Below are positions 1 through 30,777 of a DNA stretch of 39,174 bases, piece after piece (positions within the stretch are counted from its first letter, which is position 1; each line of letters opens with the position of its first letter). Made by a program: the position numbers and the translations under genes. The notes beneath the pieces were generated by a model, which was not told the origin of the DNA, searched no databases, and saw only the letters and a list, made by a program, of their open reading frames with translations. Source of the DNA: Polyangiaceae bacterium (GTDB lineage Bacteria; Myxococcota_A; Polyangia; Polyangiales; Polyangiaceae); the NCBI GenBank assembly GCA_020849655.1, contig JADLFU010000227.1:1-39174 (forward strand), read 5' to 3'.

Positions 1-172
1 ATGGATTTCGGGATCACGAGGAGCGAGTGTCGGAGTCCGAAGCGGAATTCGAGCCGATTTGGGCTGAAACCGCGCGCAGGCGTGGCCGTGCCACGTCGAG
101 CACGGTTTCACCCAAGGCGGCCGAAGGGCGCGAGGAATCAGGCGCTCGCGACGAAGGGATCCCGAAATCCAT
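1..172. repeat. Fold-back (long imperfect inverted repeat) element
   Basis: Bases 1-15 are the exact reverse complement of bases 158-172. The interior also folds: GTGGC at 82-86 pairs with GCCAC at 90-94 around a three-base loop, and GAAACCG at 66-72 pairs with CGGTTTC at 103-109. The outer arms show further patchy complementarity, for example around 31-56 against 117-140. The unit is therefore one long imperfect hairpin with perfect 15-bp ends, like a MITE or fold-back repeat. It encodes nothing convincing; the open frames through it lack family features. It lies 8 bases beyond the stop of the minus-strand gene at 181, so it could also act as a transcript-end structure. The window begins exactly at the repeat end, as expected if assembly broke at a multicopy repeat. 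That last point is inference. Confidence 0.7.
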
Positions 173-180
173 GCTGAGCG

Positions 181-3081
181 CTACCGCGAGGCAGGGGGGG
201 CGTACGCGCCTTCTCGCCACACGAGCGCGGGATCGCCGAGGCGCGCCTGCACGAGCGCGCGCCGCGGGCGGAAGCCGTCCGACATCGGCAGCTCGGAGAG
301 GACGTGCAGTTCGCGCGGGCGCGCGTGGGGCGGCAGCGCGCTGACAGCGTCTCCGAGCCGCGCCGCGGTGGGCGCCGTCGCCGAGGCGACGACCGCGACG
401 ATGTCGCCGCGCCGTCCCCAGACGCACGCGCCCTCGACCTCGCTCATCCCGTAGAGCGCGTCCTCGACGGCACGGCCCGACACCGGGCCGTCGGACGTCT
501 CGATGAACCCCGCCAGCGCGTCGACGTACCAGTGGTCGCCGTCCTCGTCCTCGACGAGCACGTCGCCCGTGACGAGCCAGTGATCGCTGCGGCGGAACGC
601 GCCCTCGACGAGCCCGGCGACCCCCGGGCCGAGATCGTCGTCGCGCAGCTCGACCGCGAGCAGGCCCGGCTCGCCGCGTGGGCAGCGCGAGAGGAAGCCA
701 CGCTCGTCGCGCCGCGGCTCGCCCGTCGCGCGATCGACGCGCACGAGCGCGGTCGGCGCGCTGCCGGGCAGCGGCCTGCCGAGCGCGCCAGGCTTCTCGC
801 CCGACGCGTTCGCGAGGATCGCGCGGTGGGTGGTGCCCGCGTAGAACTCCATCACGCCGACGCCGAACCTCGCGCGCAGCTTCTCGACGAGATCGCGCCG
901 CGCGCCGCTGCCCGCGAACAGGCGCACGGGCAGGCTGTGGTCGCCGCGGCCCGGACGCTCGAAGAGCAGGCCGCGCAGCATCTCGCCCGCGTAGAACACG
1001 ATCTGCGCTCCCGCGCGGCGCACGTCGACGGTGAAGGTCGCGGGGTCGAAGCGCTCCGCGAGCGCGAGGCGCGCGCCGCCGACCAGCGCCGCGCCGACGC
1101 TGACGACGACGCCCGTCGGGTGGTGCAGCGGCACGCTGCAGTACGCCGTCTCGCCGGGCTTCAGCGTGCAGGCCGCCGCGGCGCCGAGCGCCGAGAGCGC
1201 CCAGCGGTGGTTCGTCACCGGCGCCGCGCGCAGCCTCCCCGACTCGCTCGGGCGCAGCAGGATCATCGCGAGATCGCGCGCGAGCCCCGCGTCGAGCGTG
1301 ACCGACGCGGGCAGCACGACGGCGGCGGGATCGATGGCCTCGAGATCGATCTGGCGCGGCCCGAGCGCCCGCGTGGCCCCGCCGCCGCCGAGCACGAGCA
1401 CGTCGCGCGAGAGCGCGTTCACGACCGCCTCCGCGTGATCGGGATCGGACGCGCACGCGTCGACGGGCACGCGCGCGAGCACCTCGCGGAGCTCCTCGGG
1501 GGCCGCGTCCGGCGGCGCGATGACGGGGATGGCGCCCAGCCGTCCGAGCGCGGTCGTCATCGACAGGAAGCTCGGTCGCGAGCCCATCACGACGAGCACC
1601 CGGTGCCCGGGGCGAACGCCAGAGACCCACAAACCTCGCGCGACGTTGCCGACGCGTCGATCGGCGTCGCGGTAGGAAAACGCGCGGCCGCGGTACAGGA
1701 AGAACGTCTCGCCTGGCGATCTGCGCGCCTGGTCCGCGAGCGCGCGCGACGGGCTCACGCGGTCGAGCGGCCCGAGCTCCGCGAGGCGCCGCAGCCGAGG
1801 CTCCTGGTAGCGGACCGCGTCGGCCGCGTCGGACGCGGAGGACGCGAGGTTGCCCAGCTTCTGCCACGCCGTCCGCGCGGCCTCGCCGAGGGTGTCGACG
1901 AACAGCTCCACCTCGACGTCGAGCCCCTCGGCCGCCTCGTCCACCTCGTCGAGATCATCCCGCCGCGGAGCCTCCTCGGGCGCGAGCGCGGCCGGTCGCG
2001 GGCCGAGGCCCTCGTGGAACCGGATCCAGTCCGCGACGGCGGGCCACGTCGTCTGCATCGCGCGGCTGCCGACGACGAGGCCGAAATGCCCCGCGGGGAT
2101 GTCGACGAAGGACACGTCCGCGTTGGGCGCTGCCTGGGCGATCGCGCGCACGGGCGCGGGGCGCGCGATCTCGTCGCTCGTGCCGACGAACGCGAGGATG
2201 GGGCAGGTGAGGTCGGCCAGCGTCACCGTGTGCGCGTCGATGACGAAGCCGCCGCTCAGCATGCGGTTGTGCACGACGAACTCGTCCACGAACGTGCGCA
2301 GCGCCGGGCCGGGCCACGCGACGAACCCGGCGCCGTTGAGGAACCGCCTGCGCGCCTCTCCGCGCACGAGCGCGCCGCGGTCGTGCAGCTTCGAGACAAA
2401 CTCTACGCGCTGCTGGAGCTCCTTGCGGGGCGAGAGCAGCTTGAAGCCCGTCGACGAGAGCACGCCGGGGAGGCCCTCGATCCTGTCGATCGCGCGCAGC
2501 ACCGTGGGCTCGATCGCCTGGATGAGCGCGCCCGCCACGTCGGCGCGCAGCGCGGGCACGTTGCGGTGGATGTCGACGGGGCTGCCGAACGTGATCACCG
2601 ACGCGACGCCGGCCGTGCGGCGGAACGCGGCCGCCTGGTAGCAGAACATCCCGCCCTGCGAGTAGCCGCAGACGTGCACGTCGCGCCCCGACAGCTCGCG
2701 CACGCGCTCGATCGCGCTGCTGACCGCCTTGACGTGGTCGTCGAGCGTCCGGCGCATCCCGCCCCGCTCGCGCTCGGGCGCGCCGAAGTCGAGGACGTAG
2801 GGGCAGATGCCGCGCGCGCCGAGGGCCGACACCGCCGAGATGTCCTCGTCCATGTCGTAGACCTCGCTCGTGATCATCAGCGGGGGGACGAGCAACGCGA
2901 CGGGCCCGCCGTCCGCGTCGGTCGTCGCGTAGCGCCGCAGCCTGTGGTGCTCGCCCTCGTCGACCAGCTCGTAAGGGGCACCGTACGGGTCTGCCAGCCG
3001 GCCGAGCCGGGCGAGCTCGAGGGCGTTGCGGACGGAGGCCCGGGTGCGCCGCCGGAGCCGAGCGAGGACGCGCTTCATCAC
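181..3081 (-). CDS. PHA-synthase-like alpha/beta hydrolase fused to AMP-binding (acyl-CoA ligase-like) domain
   Basis: The protein has 966 residues. Residues about 35-355 form an alpha/beta hydrolase of the PhaC/PHA-depolymerase type, with nucleophile motif GYSQGG (S141), D303 in VGTSDE and H332 in PAGHFG, a complete triad. True PHA synthases carry Cys in the lipase box, so Ser argues for hydrolase or acyltransferase chemistry. After an acidic linker (about 365-400), residues about 450-960 match the ANL acyl-CoA synthetase/AMP-ligase fold (FFLYRGRAFSYRD, FYAGTTHRA, VTGDVL). The ligase core is degenerate: the phosphate-binding loop position (about 607-620) reads ILLRPSESGRLRA rather than the usual Ser/Thr/Gly-rich loop. 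The hinge Arg region reads VDALAGF, and the expected catalytic Lys near the end is Arg (DGFRPRR). Similar fusions are, from memory, known in actinobacteria. The start is GTG at 3081 or the adjacent ATG at 3078, with a TACGGT box 6 bases upstream. Confidence 0.85.
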   Translation of the reverse strand: MMKRVLARLRRRTRASVRNALELARLGRLADPYGAPYELVDEGEHHRLRRYATTDADGGPVALLVPPLMITSEVYDMDEDISAVSALGARGICPYVLDFGAPERERGGMRRTLDDHVKAVSSAIERVRELSGRDVHVCGYSQGGMFCYQAAAFRRTAGVASVITFGSPVDIHRNVPALRADVAGALIQAIEPTVLRAIDRIEGLPGVLSSTGFKLLSPRKELQQRVEFVSKLHDRGALVRGEARRRFLNGAGFVAWPGPALRTFVDEFVVHNRMLSGGFVIDAHTVTLADLTCPILAFVGTSDEIARPAPVRAIAQAAPNADVSFVDIPAGHFGLVVGSRAMQTTWPAVADWIRFHEGLGPRPAALAPEEAPRRDDLDEVDEAAEGLDVEVELFVDTLGEAARTAWQKLGNLASSASDAADAVRYQEPRLRRLAELGPLDRVSPSRALADQARRSPGETFFLYRGRAFSYRDADRRVGNVARGLWVSGVRPGHRVLVVMGSRPSFLSMTTALGRLGAIPVIAPPDAAPEELREVLARVPVDACASDPDHAEAVVNALSRDVLVLGGGGATRALGPRQIDLEAIDPAAVVLPASVTLDAGLARDLAMILLRPSESGRLRAAPVTNHRWALSALGAAAACTLKPGETAYCSVPLHHPTGVVVSVGAALVGGARLALAERFDPATFTVDVRRAGAQIVFYAGEMLRGLLFERPGRGDHSLPVRLFAGSGARRDLVEKLRARFGVGVMEFYAGTTHRAILANASGEKPGALGRPLPGSAPTALVRVDRATGEPRRDERGFLSRCPRGEPGLLAVELRDDDLGPGVAGLVEGAFRRSDHWLVTGDVLVEDEDGDHWYVDALAGFIETSDGPVSGRAVEDALYGMSEVEGACVWGRRGDIVAVVASATAPTAARLGDAVSALPPHARPRELHVLSELPMSDGFRPRRALVQARLGDPALVWREGAYAPPASR

Positions 3082-23712: not shown

Positions 23713-26700
23713 GTGAGCACGGACGGCGCCGTCCCTGGGGAGGCAGGAGGAGCGGCGGTCAGCGACCGCGCGGTGCCGCGGGTGTCGGGGCCGCCCGCCG
23801 AGATCGCGTCGCTGCTCGCGAGGCTCCAGGAGGCCCGCCTGGCCCACGATCGCCGCGAGGAGCGCGACGCGGCGGTGGCGCTCGGCAGGCTCCTCGTCGC
23901 GCGTGGGGCTGAGCTCGCGACCGCAGCGCGCGTGCTGCGGCACGCGCTCGCGATCGAGGATGACGCGCAGCTGCGCGCGGAGCTCTCGCGCCTGCTGCTG
24001 TCGATCGGCGAGCACGCGCTCGCGGCGACCGAACACAAGGCGCTGCTCGAGGGCCGCGCGGGGCCGGCCGCGGCGACCGACTGGCTGCGCGTGGGGGAGT
24101 GGTTCGTGAGGGCGGGAGAGGCGCGCGCCGCCTCGGAGGCGCTCCAGCGTGGCGCCCTGCTCGATCCTCAGTCCCCGCTCTGCCACGAGGTGCTGGGCTC
24201 GATCGCGTGGTGGGCCCCGGACGAGGTCGGCAACGAGGCCGCGTCTTCGGCCATGCAGGAGGCAGCCCGCCGCCGAGCGCTCGCGCGAGACGGCGAGGGC
24301 GCGCTGGAAGACTGGCTGCGCGCCGTCGAGATCGCGCCAGCGTCGGTCGCCGCTGCCGAGGGCGCGGCCGAGCTCCTGCGCGCGCGTGGGCGCGGCCTGG
24401 CCGCGGTCGAGGTGCTGAGGGCGAACGCGGCGGCGCAGCCGGATCCAGCGGACGCTCACGCCCGCCTGGCGCGGGCGGCGCTGTCGGAGGGAGATCTGTG
24501 CGGGGCGCTCGGCGCGGCGTTCGATGGCCGGCTCGACGCCGTCGACGCGCCCGAGGTCGCGCTGTTCGACGAGGTGCTGTCGCGCGTCTCGCTCCACGAG
24601 TGGCTCGCTCACCGGCTCGAGCTGCGCGCGGAGGCCGCGACAGGGCGCCGCCGCGCGGCCTTGTTCGTCGATCTCGCGCGCGTGTGCGAGGGCCCGCTCG
24701 CCGATCCCGGTCGCGCGCTCGCCGCGCTCGGGGACGCGGTGGTCGCCGATCCGGCCGACCAGCCGTGCGTGGCCGCGCTCCGGGCGCTCGCGTCGCGGCA
24801 GCACGACGTCGGCGCGTACGTGGAGGCGCTCCTCTGCGTCGCGTCCTCGAGCGACGGCGACACGCGCGTCCAGGCGCTCCTGGAGCTCGCCGAGGTGGCG
24901 GTCGACTCCATCGGAGACCCCTGCCTCGAGTCGTACGCGGTCGAGGGCCTCGAGCGCGCCGGCGCGATCGAGCCAGACGCCGCGCGGGGCAGGCTGGAAG
25001 CGCTCACCGCACGACGTCGGCCCGCGGACGCGGCGCTCGAGGTCGCGCGCCGCGACTTGCAGGGCGCCCTTGGCCCCGATCGGCAGGAGCCGCTCCGCCG
25101 GCTCGTGAACGCGCTGCGATGGCGACCGGGCGACGTCGTCGAGCTCGCAGCGGCGCTCGAGGAGCTCGCGACGCTCGCGCCCGACGACGCGGGGTCACGC
25201 GCCTGGCTGGCCCGCGTCGCCACCCGCGCGGGCGCGGGAGACAGGCTCCGGCGTTGCCATGAAGCGCGCCTCTCCTCGAGCTCGCGGGTCGAGGCGAGCG
25301 AGGCGCGGATGGCGCTCGCGACGATGCGGCGCCGCGAGGGCGACCCCGTCGGAGCGCTGGGAGAGGCGCGCGCGCTGGTGTCCGAGGCCGGTCACTCGCG
25401 TGGCGTGGCGTCCTTCCTGCTGGCGCTCGCCGCCGCCACAGGCGACGACGCCTGCGCCTCCGAGGTGCTGGCGCAGCTCGCCGTGTCCCTCCCTCCGACG
25501 CTGCGGTCGGTCGCGCTGTCGGCCGCGTCCGAGCGGCTCGCGCGCGTGGGTGACGGGCGCGCGGCGTCGGTCGCGATGGCCGCGCGTGGCGCCGACCCCA
25601 CGTCACCCCGCGCGCTCGCGGCGCACGTGGCCGCCCTCCCCGAGGCGGCTGATCGGAGCGGCGTCGCGGCGCTCGAGCGCGCCTCCGCGATGCTGCGGCC
25701 GGGGGCTTCACTCGCCCTGCGGGCATCGGTCTGGCTGGCGCGCGCAGGAGAGCCGCTGCTCTCGCTCGCGTGGGCGCGCCAGGCTGCGTCGCTGCGCCCC
25801 GCCGACGCCGAGGCGGCCACGCGGGTGCTCGAGGCCGCGGCCGAGGTCGACGCCGCGCGGCTCAACGAGGCCATCGCGTGGGCCACCTCCGTCCCGGCTC
25901 CGTCGGCGCTCGTCGCCCCCGCGCTCGCGGCCGCGCTCCGACGGCTCGCCGCGCTCGACCCGCCCGCGGCGTCGCTCGCCGCTCGGCGCGCGCTCGACGT
26001 GCTCGGTCCGCGCGACCCGGCGCTGCTCGAGGCGGCGGTCGAGATCGCCCAGGCGTCGGGAGACCCCGGGCTCGTGGCGTCGTTCCTCGAGCGGGCCGCC
26101 GCGGTCGGCGAGGCGTCGGGGCACCTCCTCTTGCGGGCGTCACGCGCTCGCGCGGAGGCGGGTGACCCCGTCGGCGCGGCGAGGGCGCTCTCGCGCGCCG
26201 CGAAGCACGGCGCGCCCGGCGACGAGGTGTTGACGCTCGCCGACGCGATCGACGAGAGCGCCTCGGACTCTCGCCTGGCGCTCTGCGAGGCGCGCGCGGA
26301 CGCCTGCGTCGCTCTCGACCGGCCCGCCGACGCGTGGGCGCACCTCCGCGCGCTCGGCGCGATGCGCTGGGATCTCGCCGGCGACACGCCGGCTGCGCTG
26401 AGGGCGTGGGTGCGCGCCGTGGAGGTGGGGCCGCTGGAGGCGCCAGCTCGCTTCGTCGCGGACGTGCTCGCGTTCGCCGGCGCGGCGCGGGGGGCGCACG
26501 AGCTCGAGCGCCTCGCGGCTCCCCGACGCGCCGCGCGAGGAGGCGGGCTCGTCTTGTCGCTCGCCGCGTCGGTCGCGGCGGCAGGCAGGCTGCGCGACGA
26601 GGCGTATCGGCTCGGTCACGAGGCGATCTCTCGCGATCCGTCGCGCGCCGAGGCCCTCGCGATCGTCGAGTCCTCTGCGCAGCCGGCGGACGCCCCCGCG

Positions 26701-29700
26701 CTCGCCGAGCTGTTCGACTCGATGGCGAGCGCCGCCAAGGGCGCGTTCGGTCGCCGGGCGGTGCGGTACCGGGGCGCTCGAGCGCTGGAGCGCCTGGGCG
26801 CCTTCGACCTCGCGCTGTCGCAGGCGGCGATGGCGTTCGAGGAGGTGCCGACGCTCGGCACGCCGTACGTCCTCTTGGTCCGGCTCGTCGAGCGCGCAGG
26901 TGACGCGGGCCCCGCCGTGGCCGCGCTCGGGCGGGTGGCGGAGCGCGAGGGAGACATCTCCGAGCGCGCGGCCTGGCTCCACCGAGCGGCCGAGCTCGCG
27001 GGCAAGTCGGCAGACGGCGCGCGCGCGCGCGTCGAGGTGCTGCTGCGCGCCCTGCACGTGCTGCCGGATCGCCAGACCGTCGCCGCCGTCGCGCAGTCGC
27101 TGGCCGCCCTCGGGCGTGAGCCGGGCGAGAGCGTGTTCGACGCGGAGTCGCGGTTCGACCGCGCCGCGCGCGCGGCGCTCGCGCGCGTCGAGGGGCCAGC
27201 GGGCGCCCGGGTCGCCCTCGCGTTCGCGGCGGCCGCGATGGCGCATTTCGGCGCGTCGCGGCTGGCGATGGACGCCCTGCTCTGCGCGCTCGACGCGGAC
27301 GCCGACATGGACGAGTACGCCGACCTCGAGCCACACGTCGCGGCGCTCGCGCGCTCCGAGGGCGTCGAGCAGGCGATCGAGCGCGCGCTCTCGCTCCTGT
27401 CGCGTCCCTACTCGAACGTCGGGTTCTTCGCGCTGCGTCTCGTCGCGCTGCTCGCGGAGCGTACGGGGGATCTCAAGGGCGCCGCGAAGCTCCTCGCCGC
27501 CGCGCAGAAGAAGGAGCCCGACGACGAGGTGCTCGCGTCGCTCGCCGCGCGCCTCGCCGCAGAGCGCGAGGATCCAGAGGGCACGGGCGTGGTCTCGACG
27601 GCCTCTCCCGCGCCGACCGATCCGTCCGCGGCCCTGGCCGCCGCTGTCTCGCTCGCCGCTGCCGGGAGCCTCGCGGACGCGACGCCGACCTTCGAGCGGC
27701 TCGCGTGGGACGCGGCCGTGCCCGGCCACGTGAGGCAAGCTGCGTTTCGGTCGCTCGTGCAGGCGCTCCGCGCGGCGGGCCAGCCGGTCGCGCTCGAGGC
27801 CGCGCTCGCTCGCGAGGTCGCGCGCGCCGAGGCGGCCGGGGAGTCGAGCGCCGATGTGTCGAGCGAGCTCGTCGACCTCTGCGCGAGCGGGGGACGCGCC
27901 GACGAGGCGCTCGAGGCCGGGCTCGCGTCGCTTCGCCGCGAGGACGCCTCCCCCCGGCTCCTCGCGTCGACGCTGGCCGTCGCGCGCAGGGGCGCCGCGC
28001 ACAGGCTCACGGCGGAGGTCTTTGGCCGCGCGCTCGAGCACGCGGCGCGTGAGGATCGGAGCGGGCTGCTCGAGGAGCTCGCGACGGCGCTGGAGCAGGC
28101 GGGCGACCGCGACGGGGCGAAGCTCAGGTGGTTCCAGCTGGTGGAGCGCGAGCCCACCCACGCGAACGCGCTCAACGCCATCGAGCGCATCGCGCTGCAC
28201 GAGGGCGATCACGCGACGCTCGCGGCGCTGATGGCCGCGAAGATCGCGGCGGGGGGCTCCGTGGACGAGCTGCGCGTGCTGCGGCTGCGGCGCGCGGCGC
28301 TCCTCGAGCAGCGGCTGGGTCGCCTCGACGAGGCGCGCGACGAGCTGCTCCGCCTCTGCGAGGCCGATGACGCGGCGGCCGTCCGCTACCTCGCCGAGCT
28401 CGAGGAGCGCCGCGGTGATCACGGCGCCGCGGCGCGCGCCTGGACCCGCGCGGGCGCGCTCGCCACCAACCCGAGGGAGCGCGCCGATCTGACCACGCGC
28501 GCCGCGCAGGCGGCGCTCCGCGCGGGTGACGTGTCGCGCGCGAGGGAGGCGGTGCAGCTGGCGCTCGCCTCCTCGCGCGCCGAGCGCCTCCTCGAGCTCC
28601 GTGTCGAGATCGAGCGCGCCGCCGCCGATCCGCGGCGCCTGGGCGACGCGCTCGACGAGCTCGCGGTGGCCTCGCTCGCGGCGCCGGAGCGGAGAGCCGA
28701 GCTGCTCGTGGAGTCCGCGAGGACGGCGCTCGAGGCCGGGGACGAGCCGACGGCGCTCGAGCGCGCGCAGCGCGCAGCGCGGATCGCGCCCGCCTCGACG
28801 GACGCCCAGCTCCTCGCGAGGTCGCTCGAGTACCGCGCCCGCGGCGCCGGGGCGCCTCCCGAGGCCACCCAGACGATCGAGGAGCTGCGGCGGGTGACAG
28901 GCCTCCGGAGCGACGACGCGCCGGTGCACGCCTTCCTCCTCGCGGAGGCGCTCGACACCGTCCAGGGCGGGAACGCCGGGATGAGAGAGCTCTCCGCGCG
29001 CCACGCCGAGCTCGGCGACCACCCGCTCCTGTGCCTCGGCCTCGCGGAGCGGCTGCTCAGGCAGGGGAGCTTCGCCGCCGCGCTGCCGCTGTTCGACGGC
29101 GCGCTCTCGGGAGATCTGCGCGGCCTCCGCCGTCGGGGCGCGGTCGCGCTCGCGGCGGCGGACGCGGCGTACCGGAGCGACGATCTCGCGCTGTCTGCGC
29201 GGTACCTCGCCGAGGCAGAGCGCGATCCGAGCACGTCCCAGATCGCGCGCCAGCGCCAGTCGACGCTCGCCGCAGCGGAGCAGCAGCGCAGCCAGGATCT
29301 CGTCGTCGATGAGCGCAAGACGCTGACCGAGCTCGTGACCCGCGCGGTCGGGCTCGACCGGGCGCGCGCTCTCTCCAAGCTCGCGAGGCTCCTGGCTCAG
29401 AACCCAGGCGAGCGCGCCGACGCGGACAGGCTGCTGTCGGAGGCGCTCGCGGCCGCGGAGCTGGACCCGTCGCTCGTGATCGAGCTCGAGGCGCAGCGCG
29501 CGGAGCTGCGCGGCGTCCCGTCGCGCGCGAGCGCTCCCCCTCGCGCACCCGACCCGCGGCCCCACGCCAGCCGTCCCGTGGCGCCCGCGCTGCCGGAGCT
29601 GCGGCCGGGGAGGAGCGCGCCGTCGTCTCCCTCCATCCCCGTGGTGACGGCCGCCGTCGCGATCGCCGAGGCGCCCGAGCCGCCCCCGGACACGGAGATG

Positions 29701-30777
29701 ACGCTGGTCGCGCCCCCGCTGCAGCGCGTGACGGCACCTCCGCCGGCGGCCTACCCGCCTCGAGAGGCGCACGCGTCCCCGAGCGTGCACCCTACGGTCG
29801 CGCCGCCACGAGCCGGGCTGTCCGCGCTCCGCGACGCCGCGCTCGCCGATCGTCACCTGCAGCGAGCGCGCGCGATCGAGCACGTCCTCGCGTGCGCGAC
29901 GCCGGGCGCGATTGTCCCCGAGGCGCCGCCCATCGCGCTGCAGGCCGAGCAGCCCGAGAACGTGCTGCGGCTCCTCTTGCGGGGCGCGACGACGCCGCTC
30001 GGCGAGGCGCTGGCGCTCATTTGGGAGAGCGCGTCCCACCTGTTTCGTCGGGACGCTGGCGCGTACGGGGTCACCGGCCTCGATCGCATCGCGTTCGGCG
30101 CGACGACGCCCGCCAGCCGCGTGTACAGCGCCGGCGCGCGGCTGCTCGGCGCGGCGAGGACGCCGCTCTTCCAGCGGCGCGCGGGCGGCGAGGCGCGCGC
30201 GGAGATCGCGCTGCTCTCGCCGCCGGCCGTGATCCTGACGGGTGATCCGCGGCAGGAGACGCCCGAGCTCGCCTACCGCGTCGGGGCCGCGCTGCTCGCG
30301 GCGAGCCCCGAGCGCGCGATGATCTTCTGCCTCTCGGCGGAGCAGCTCACGAGCGCGGTCGCCGCGCTCACCGTCGCCTTCGGCCCGCCGACCCGCGAGG
30401 GGCGGCCGACGCCCGCGGTCGCGGTGCTGGCCGAGTCGCTCTGGCAGGCGCTGCCCGCGCGCTCGCAGCGCCGCCTGAGAGAGCTCGCGTCCGACCCGGG
30501 CGCGCTCTCGGTCGAGGGCTGCGTGGAGGCGTCGCGTCGCGTCGCGCGCCGCGCGGGGCTCTTCCTCTCCGGCAACCTGCTGGTGGCGCTCCGCGAGCTC
30601 GCGTCCGAGCGCGGCGCGCCACCGCCCGCGCTCGGCGCGGAGGCCGAGCTCCTGAGCGCCGCTGCGAACGATCCTGACATCGCCGATCTCCTCCAGCTCG
30701 CGACCAGCGCGGAGTACGCGGACTGCCGGTGGACCGACGGCCGGGGTCGCCGCCCGTCGGGCACGTTCCGCGTGTGA
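23713..30777 (+). CDS. Giant tetratricopeptide-repeat protein with degenerate zincin-like C-terminal domain
   Basis: This protein is about 2354 residues from GTG 23713, the first start after sppA. Residues about 35-1930 are an almost continuous array of helical TPR-like repeats rich in Ala, Leu, Arg and Glu (for example RAGEARAASEALQRGALLDP). A Pro-rich disordered linker spans about 1936-2036. The last 318 residues form a separate domain. Around 2169-2200 it reads PPAVILTG then TPELAYRVGAALLA, where M48-type peptidases have a similar strand followed by HExxH; here no His pair or zinc motif exists. No signal peptide or membrane segment is seen, so it is probably cytoplasmic. Related large TPR proteins occur in myxobacteria; the function is unknown. 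A scaffold role is inference. Confidence 0.85.
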   Translation: MSTDGAVPGEAGGAAVSDRAVPRVSGPPAEIASLLARLQEARLAHDRREERDAAVALGRLLVARGAELATAARVLRHALAIEDDAQLRAELSRLLLSIGEHALAATEHKALLEGRAGPAAATDWLRVGEWFVRAGEARAASEALQRGALLDPQSPLCHEVLGSIAWWAPDEVGNEAASSAMQEAARRRALARDGEGALEDWLRAVEIAPASVAAAEGAAELLRARGRGLAAVEVLRANAAAQPDPADAHARLARAALSEGDLCGALGAAFDGRLDAVDAPEVALFDEVLSRVSLHEWLAHRLELRAEAATGRRRAALFVDLARVCEGPLADPGRALAALGDAVVADPADQPCVAALRALASRQHDVGAYVEALLCVASSSDGDTRVQALLELAEVAVDSIGDPCLESYAVEGLERAGAIEPDAARGRLEALTARRRPADAALEVARRDLQGALGPDRQEPLRRLVNALRWRPGDVVELAAALEELATLAPDDAGSRAWLARVATRAGAGDRLRRCHEARLSSSSRVEASEARMALATMRRREGDPVGALGEARALVSEAGHSRGVASFLLALAAATGDDACASEVLAQLAVSLPPTLRSVALSAASERLARVGDGRAASVAMAARGADPTSPRALAAHVAALPEAADRSGVAALERASAMLRPGASLALRASVWLARAGEPLLSLAWARQAASLRPADAEAATRVLEAAAEVDAARLNEAIAWATSVPAPSALVAPALAAALRRLAALDPPAASLAARRALDVLGPRDPALLEAAVEIAQASGDPGLVASFLERAAAVGEASGHLLLRASRARAEAGDPVGAARALSRAAKHGAPGDEVLTLADAIDESASDSRLALCEARADACVALDRPADAWAHLRALGAMRWDLAGDTPAALRAWVRAVEVGPLEAPARFVADVLAFAGAARGAHELERLAAPRRAARGGGLVLSLAASVAAAGRLRDEAYRLGHEAISRDPSRAEALAIVESSAQPADAPALAELFDSMASAAKGAFGRRAVRYRGARALERLGAFDLALSQAAMAFEEVPTLGTPYVLLVRLVERAGDAGPAVAALGRVAEREGDISERAAWLHRAAELAGKSADGARARVEVLLRALHVLPDRQTVAAVAQSLAALGREPGESVFDAESRFDRAARAALARVEGPAGARVALAFAAAAMAHFGASRLAMDALLCALDADADMDEYADLEPHVAALARSEGVEQAIERALSLLSRPYSNVGFFALRLVALLAERTGDLKGAAKLLAAAQKKEPDDEVLASLAARLAAEREDPEGTGVVSTASPAPTDPSAALAAAVSLAAAGSLADATPTFERLAWDAAVPGHVRQAAFRSLVQALRAAGQPVALEAALAREVARAEAAGESSADVSSELVDLCASGGRADEALEAGLASLRREDASPRLLASTLAVARRGAAHRLTAEVFGRALEHAAREDRSGLLEELATALEQAGDRDGAKLRWFQLVEREPTHANALNAIERIALHEGDHATLAALMAAKIAAGGSVDELRVLRLRRAALLEQRLGRLDEARDELLRLCEADDAAAVRYLAELEERRGDHGAAARAWTRAGALATNPRERADLTTRAAQAALRAGDVSRAREAVQLALASSRAERLLELRVEIERAAADPRRLGDALDELAVASLAAPERRAELLVESARTALEAGDEPTALERAQRAARIAPASTDAQLLARSLEYRARGAGAPPEATQTIEELRRVTGLRSDDAPVHAFLLAEALDTVQGGNAGMRELSARHAELGDHPLLCLGLAERLLRQGSFAAALPLFDGALSGDLRGLRRRGAVALAAADAAYRSDDLALSARYLAEAERDPSTSQIARQRQSTLAAAEQQRSQDLVVDERKTLTELVTRAVGLDRARALSKLARLLAQNPGERADADRLLSEALAAAELDPSLVIELEAQRAELRGVPSRASAPPRAPDPRPHASRPVAPALPELRPGRSAPSSPSIPVVTAAVAIAEAPEPPPDTEMTLVAPPLQRVTAPPPAAYPPREAHASPSVHPTVAPPRAGLSALRDAALADRHLQRARAIEHVLACATPGAIVPEAPPIALQAEQPENVLRLLLRGATTPLGEALALIWESASHLFRRDAGAYGVTGLDRIAFGATTPASRVYSAGARLLGAARTPLFQRRAGGEARAEIALLSPPAVILTGDPRQETPELAYRVGAALLAASPERAMIFCLSAEQLTSAVAALTVAFGPPTREGRPTPAVAVLAESLWQALPARSQRRLRELASDPGALSVEGCVEASRRVARRAGLFLSGNLLVALRELASERGAPPPALGAEAELLSAAANDPDIADLLQLATSAEYADCRWTDGRGRRPSGTFRV

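Follow-up and report, generated by a model that had tools for sequence, protein, structure and literature searches.

At the very start of contig JADLFU010000227.1 from a Polyangiaceae bacterium, whose 39,174 nucleotides we refer to as the window, lies a sequence that folds back on itself, and our question was what kind of sequence this is. Very probably, positions 1 to 173 of the forward strand are a copy of a MITE, a 174-bp non-autonomous DNA transposon, for which a transposase supplied in trans would insert at palindromic YTSAR sites and duplicate the target. The extent of the full unit (CATGG...CCATG) was taken from an end-to-end alignment with ~30 complete copies and from its folding as a single hairpin; the first C of the window copy falls outside the contig edge. 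The left terminal inverted repeat (positions 1-15, forward strand) reads ATGGATTTCGGGATC, with a family consensus of CATGGATTTCGGGAGCCC, and the right one (positions 158-173, reverse strand) reads GATCCCGAAATCCATG; at some of the other copies, the terminal ATG of this end shares the frame of flanking genes. An earlier note on this DNA had described bases 1-15 and 158-172 as exact reverse complements, and they are: the terminal repeats are perfect over 15 bp in the window copy, while across the family the ends are conserved as CATGGNTTTCGGG, and a full-length transposon of the family would have the ends CATGGNTTTCGGGA. That note had also placed the start of the window exactly at the end of the repeat. 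The contig edge does fall inside a copy, but the complete element extends by one further base on either side.

The arms by themselves are a weak guide. First-order shuffles of the whole 39-kb window contain a mean of 0.4 such pairs, and the window holds another perfect inverted repeat, 15 bp or longer, at ~28293-28414, inside the large open frame 23713-30777; GC-rich coding sequence probably gave rise to this one by chance. The arms alone are thus less striking than the earlier judgement had it, by which a 15-bp repeat is very unlikely to arise by chance, and it is the copies found elsewhere in the source genome, at 89-100% identity, that lift the sequence far beyond chance. Open frames on both strands, previously thought odd, are ordinary, as three of six frames are open in the window copy, three is also the commonest value in shuffles, and individual copies have from 0 to 6. 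With open-frame numbers that match shuffles and unit lengths of 163-175 bp that disrupt any frame, the element has no coding capacity.

The copy number was derived from searches of the source genome, a 6.56-Mb draft in 307 contigs with 614 contig ends. These returned complete copies, mostly about 88-94% identical to the window copy, together with many partial ones. An 18-bp end motif occurs 97 times at ≤3 mismatches vs. 3 times for the reversed control, and a profile built from 23 complete copies marks ~55 strong places, some of which are two parts of a single copy divided by a contig break. We put the true number at perhaps 50-60, deletion derivatives included. The sequence is thus multi-copy, a single copy in the source genome, with none in relatives, being the result that the earlier note had said would speak against a mobile family. 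Of the 614 contig ends, ~24 are inside copies, the window start among them, so the assembly did break at a repeated sequence, as had been suggested, and the family accounts for a share of the contig breaks in this draft. Deletion derivatives were seen at L045:1501-1553 (C133:101444), L058:1501-1613, L086:1074-1137 and L078:1594-1615, the smallest being a 22-bp stub. They keep the ends and YTSAR-like flanks, with CTGAG on either side at C133:101444, and represent internal deletions or imprecise excision footprints.

On sequence overlap, the probable left neighbour of the window is contig C134, the end of which is exactly the first 121 bases of the window; C207, overlapping by 48 bases, is the alternative. 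CTGAG precedes the element in both contigs and recurs in the window at 174-178 as the right copy of the duplicated target. The gene in C134 is thiC, which ends at the TGA of the CTGAG before the element. The gene flanking the window copy (181-3081, reverse strand) encodes an alpha/beta hydrolase plus AMP-binding enzyme of 966 aa, lies outside the element and has its TAG stop just past the target duplication. With C134 as left neighbour, this gene would be convergent to thiC.

The earlier note had proposed a check for target-site duplications, and short direct repeats do border the copies, mostly of the form YTSAR (CTCAG, CTGAG, TTGAA, TTCAA). Among 34 end-to-end copies, flank identity is 0.87 at a length of 5 vs. 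at most 0.27 at other lengths, and 19 of the 34 have flanks identical at all five bases, vs. a shuffle mean of 6.9 and a maximum of 15 in 10,000. At the central flank base, 30 of the 34 copies agree with a direct repeat and 2 with an inverted one, so the repeat is direct and not inverted. Many copies at contig ends display one flank only. Flanks are not fully identical in 15 of the 34, and the mismatch is often at the outermost base. This mismatch has a pattern, ATGAG, GTGAG or TTGAG on one side and CTGAG on the other, that would not be expected if a 5-bp duplication had decayed at random. Several non-identical copies have NTGAG before the element and CTGAG after it, the outer base alone differing, an arrangement that would be expected if only the 3 bp TSA were duplicated and the outer G...C belonged to the element itself. 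At TTGAA, TTCAA, TTCAG and TTCAT the repeat extends over all five positions, as would be consistent with a 5-bp duplication. Taken together, the flanks are compatible with a duplication of either 5 bp or 3 bp.

For four insertions (C70, C207, C164 and C159), the corresponding sites were compared in one other genome of the same genus. The element is missing at all four, and the flanks adjoin there. At C164 the empty site reads CTCAG and the filled site has CTCAG on either side; at C159 the spacing of the matching flanks differs by exactly 180 nt, and the empty site is a classical ATGA overlap. The many copies, the direct target repeats and these empty sites bear out the earlier suggestion of an undescribed non-autonomous mobile family. 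The unit shares the traits by which MITEs are recognised: it is short (174 bp, where MITEs are below about 600 bp), is present as many near-identical copies, has terminal inverted repeats, a target duplication and filled and empty sites, and lacks coding capacity. The same observations bear on another possible origin, a reverse-transcribed hairpin, retron-type (msDNA-like) or other, with copies scattered over the chromosome, a kind reportedly present in Nannocystis. A myxobacterium-like genome with many copies of a long hairpin of ~170 nt would suit such an origin. However, direct YTSAR target duplications, precise empty sites and inverted ends do not, and Rfam gave no match above chance for the element; we consider this origin extremely unlikely.

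The sister genome contains ~10 copies, mostly old and diverged, with one at 91% identity, and 57 other genomes of the family and order gave background levels or single weak fragments. When 84,980 species were scanned for exact occurrences of the 18-bp end, a set from which records of the source genome were possibly left out, five matches were returned, all without the element. By this distribution of matching sequences, the MITE family seems to be restricted to one genus and amplified in the species of the window, and we infer that it spread mainly after the split from the sister species.

When the first 190 nt are folded, positions 1-172 form one full-length hairpin. As DNA it has -62.3 kcal/mol (z -6.9) and as RNA -112.9 (z -8.3), and in both cases none of 200 shuffles was as good. 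The nested inner stems that had been noticed around a three-base loop at 87-89 are real and belong to this full-length hairpin, the loop appearing in both the DNA and the RNA fold. Among 38 copies from both species, hairpin pairs are maintained in 95.2% of cells. Pairs changed on both sides number 13 (5.8 in shuffles, 8-10 in slid controls), and cells with a compensatory change number 34 (8.4 in shuffles, 9-15 in slid controls), counts that exceed the number of independent compensatory events because an older subfamily in the sister genome gives part of the signal. These aligned copies suggest that the whole palindrome, and not the ends alone, mattered during the evolution of the family. Since the hairpin was kept, it probably has a role in mobility or in making the insert tolerable within transcripts.

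A strong hairpin with compensatory changes, located at gene ends, might also be expected of a REP/RAYT-type palindrome or of a conserved RNA structure (terminator, attenuator) with a function at these ends, held in place by selection. However, target duplications together with empty sites point to insertion, the empty sites contradict an origin by selective retention, and the element is missing from the four orthologous junctions compared in the sister species. REP sequences moved by RAYT enzymes are 20-40-bp palindromes without target duplication, far shorter than 174 bp. The hairpin of the window copy has no T-run, and is therefore not a standard intrinsic terminator. We regard such an origin as very unlikely, and REP-like proved the weaker half of the earlier guess, given the terminal inverted repeats and target duplications of the copies. 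A putative later role of the hairpin at 3' ends is possible, and in the window copy it might form a 3' structure of the gene that ends at 181.

Site classes were called with a simple codon-usage gene finder, for 27 two-ended insertions and for a background of YTSAR sites in 184 kb. Twelve insertions are at a stop codon, nine are intergenic and six are coding, compared with 12, 50 and 318 background sites, respectively. Coding sequence is thus strongly avoided (6/27 insertions vs. 318/380 background sites, p 4e-11), and stop codons are enriched over intergenic YTSAR sites (odds ratio 5.6, p 0.002), with a weaker enrichment against the preferred CTSAG sites (12:9 vs. 9:21). Stop-codon targeting as a special mechanism was considered and rejected; the enrichment weakens against CTSAG sites, and selection plus the motif can explain most of it. 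An in-frame ATG as a special design, argued from phase counts, was likewise set aside, and these counts were left unused on their own because CTS-AG codon usage also favours phase 0.

A few copies do lie within genes (for example C129:608, C87:10043 and C223:9198), and some insertions are 180 nt long and open in frame (C159), in keeping with an RPE-like element, one that contributes peptide segments through in-frame insertion into coding genes. However, most insertions are 179 nt long and cause a frameshift, open frames are as numerous as in shuffles, and the avoidance of coding sites is the opposite of the in-frame insertion into protein genes that characterises Rickettsia palindromic elements. 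An element of that type is, in our judgement, extremely unlikely here.

Under the MITE reading, the positions of the copies would arise as follows. YTSAR always has TGA on one strand and insertions within genes would be purged, so survivors would be found chiefly in intergenic sequence, at stop codons and where genes of an operon adjoin. At such junctions, duplication of the target restores the upstream stop, and the terminal ATG of the element can stand in frame with the downstream gene. At C70, the upstream gene keeps its C-terminus (...VVEAPC, stop) after insertion, and the downstream gene for a calcineurin-like phosphoesterase, which begins GTG-CTG-A in the sister species, begins ATG-CTG-A here with the ATG from the element, its calcineurin-like domain intact from residue 3. 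The filled gene at C159 has a possible start at the element's ATG, or is read through the 180-nt insert, and the downstream gene at C207 also retains its own ATG nearby. From these junction sequences, ATGs of the element may serve as start codons. A further step would be that the element has become adapted to insertion between translationally coupled genes in a way that leaves both intact, with a TGA-centred target, a stop rebuilt by duplication, an end that gives an in-frame ATG and a hairpin that makes the insert tolerable in transcripts; we put this forward tentatively and think it rather unlikely.

The transposase that would recognise the two inverted ends and move the element is probably a DDE enzyme. 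The earlier note had proposed a search for a transposase with matching ends, and none was found in either draft genome among DDE_Tnp_1, rve, DUF772 and DUF4096. DUF4096 had no match in either genome, and no element ends matched at the DDE_Tnp_1 and rve loci scanned in both. Unpaired ends in the source genome, read one by one, showed no transposase by eye and look like deletion derivatives or decayed copies. The enzyme is perhaps of the IS5/PHIS kind, which is suspected because the target is TNA-cored, the sole pointer in that direction.

Literature searches turned up nothing relevant on myxobacterial MITEs and nothing on bcr1 with target duplication. We regard the present family as new within a familiar class of elements; its relation to stop and start codons is unusually clear. 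Well documented by its target motif and empty sites, it is a MITE family in a genus for which the literature search turned up none described. Landing on stop codons and possibly supplying start codons shows concretely how a gene-dense genome can come to hold many copies of a small transposon and suffer little harm. This relation also lets targeting be told apart from selection in a testable way.

How does the family compare with known systems? A match in target is the NuwaII group of PHIS/IS5-related transposons (PMC4482050), which has the target C|TNA|G and the same ambiguity between a 3-bp and a 5-bp duplication; it is a lead only, NuwaII being eukaryotic with known transposases, whereas the present family is bacterial and its transposase was not found. 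Among bacterial MITEs, MITEAba12 of Acinetobacter is likewise short, without a transposase gene, with inverted ends, target duplications, near-uniform length and bursts of copies (PMC6382973). Its proposed parent is ISAba12 and its 9-bp duplications have no sequence trend (PMC6382973), in contrast to a family with a palindromic YTSAR target for which no parent was found. Rickettsia palindromic elements are also palindromic, ~150 bp long and dispersed through one genus, but they sit in frame inside protein genes (PMC10969869), which the present family avoids. QMITE2 of Coxiella burnetii, at 150-190 bp, also forms a stable stem and lies mostly at gene 3' ends and in intergenic sequence (PMC5896051). 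Its direct repeats are 7-11 nt long and variable in sequence (PMC5896051), whereas those described here are 5-bp (or 3-bp) YTSAR duplications that often overlap a stop codon.
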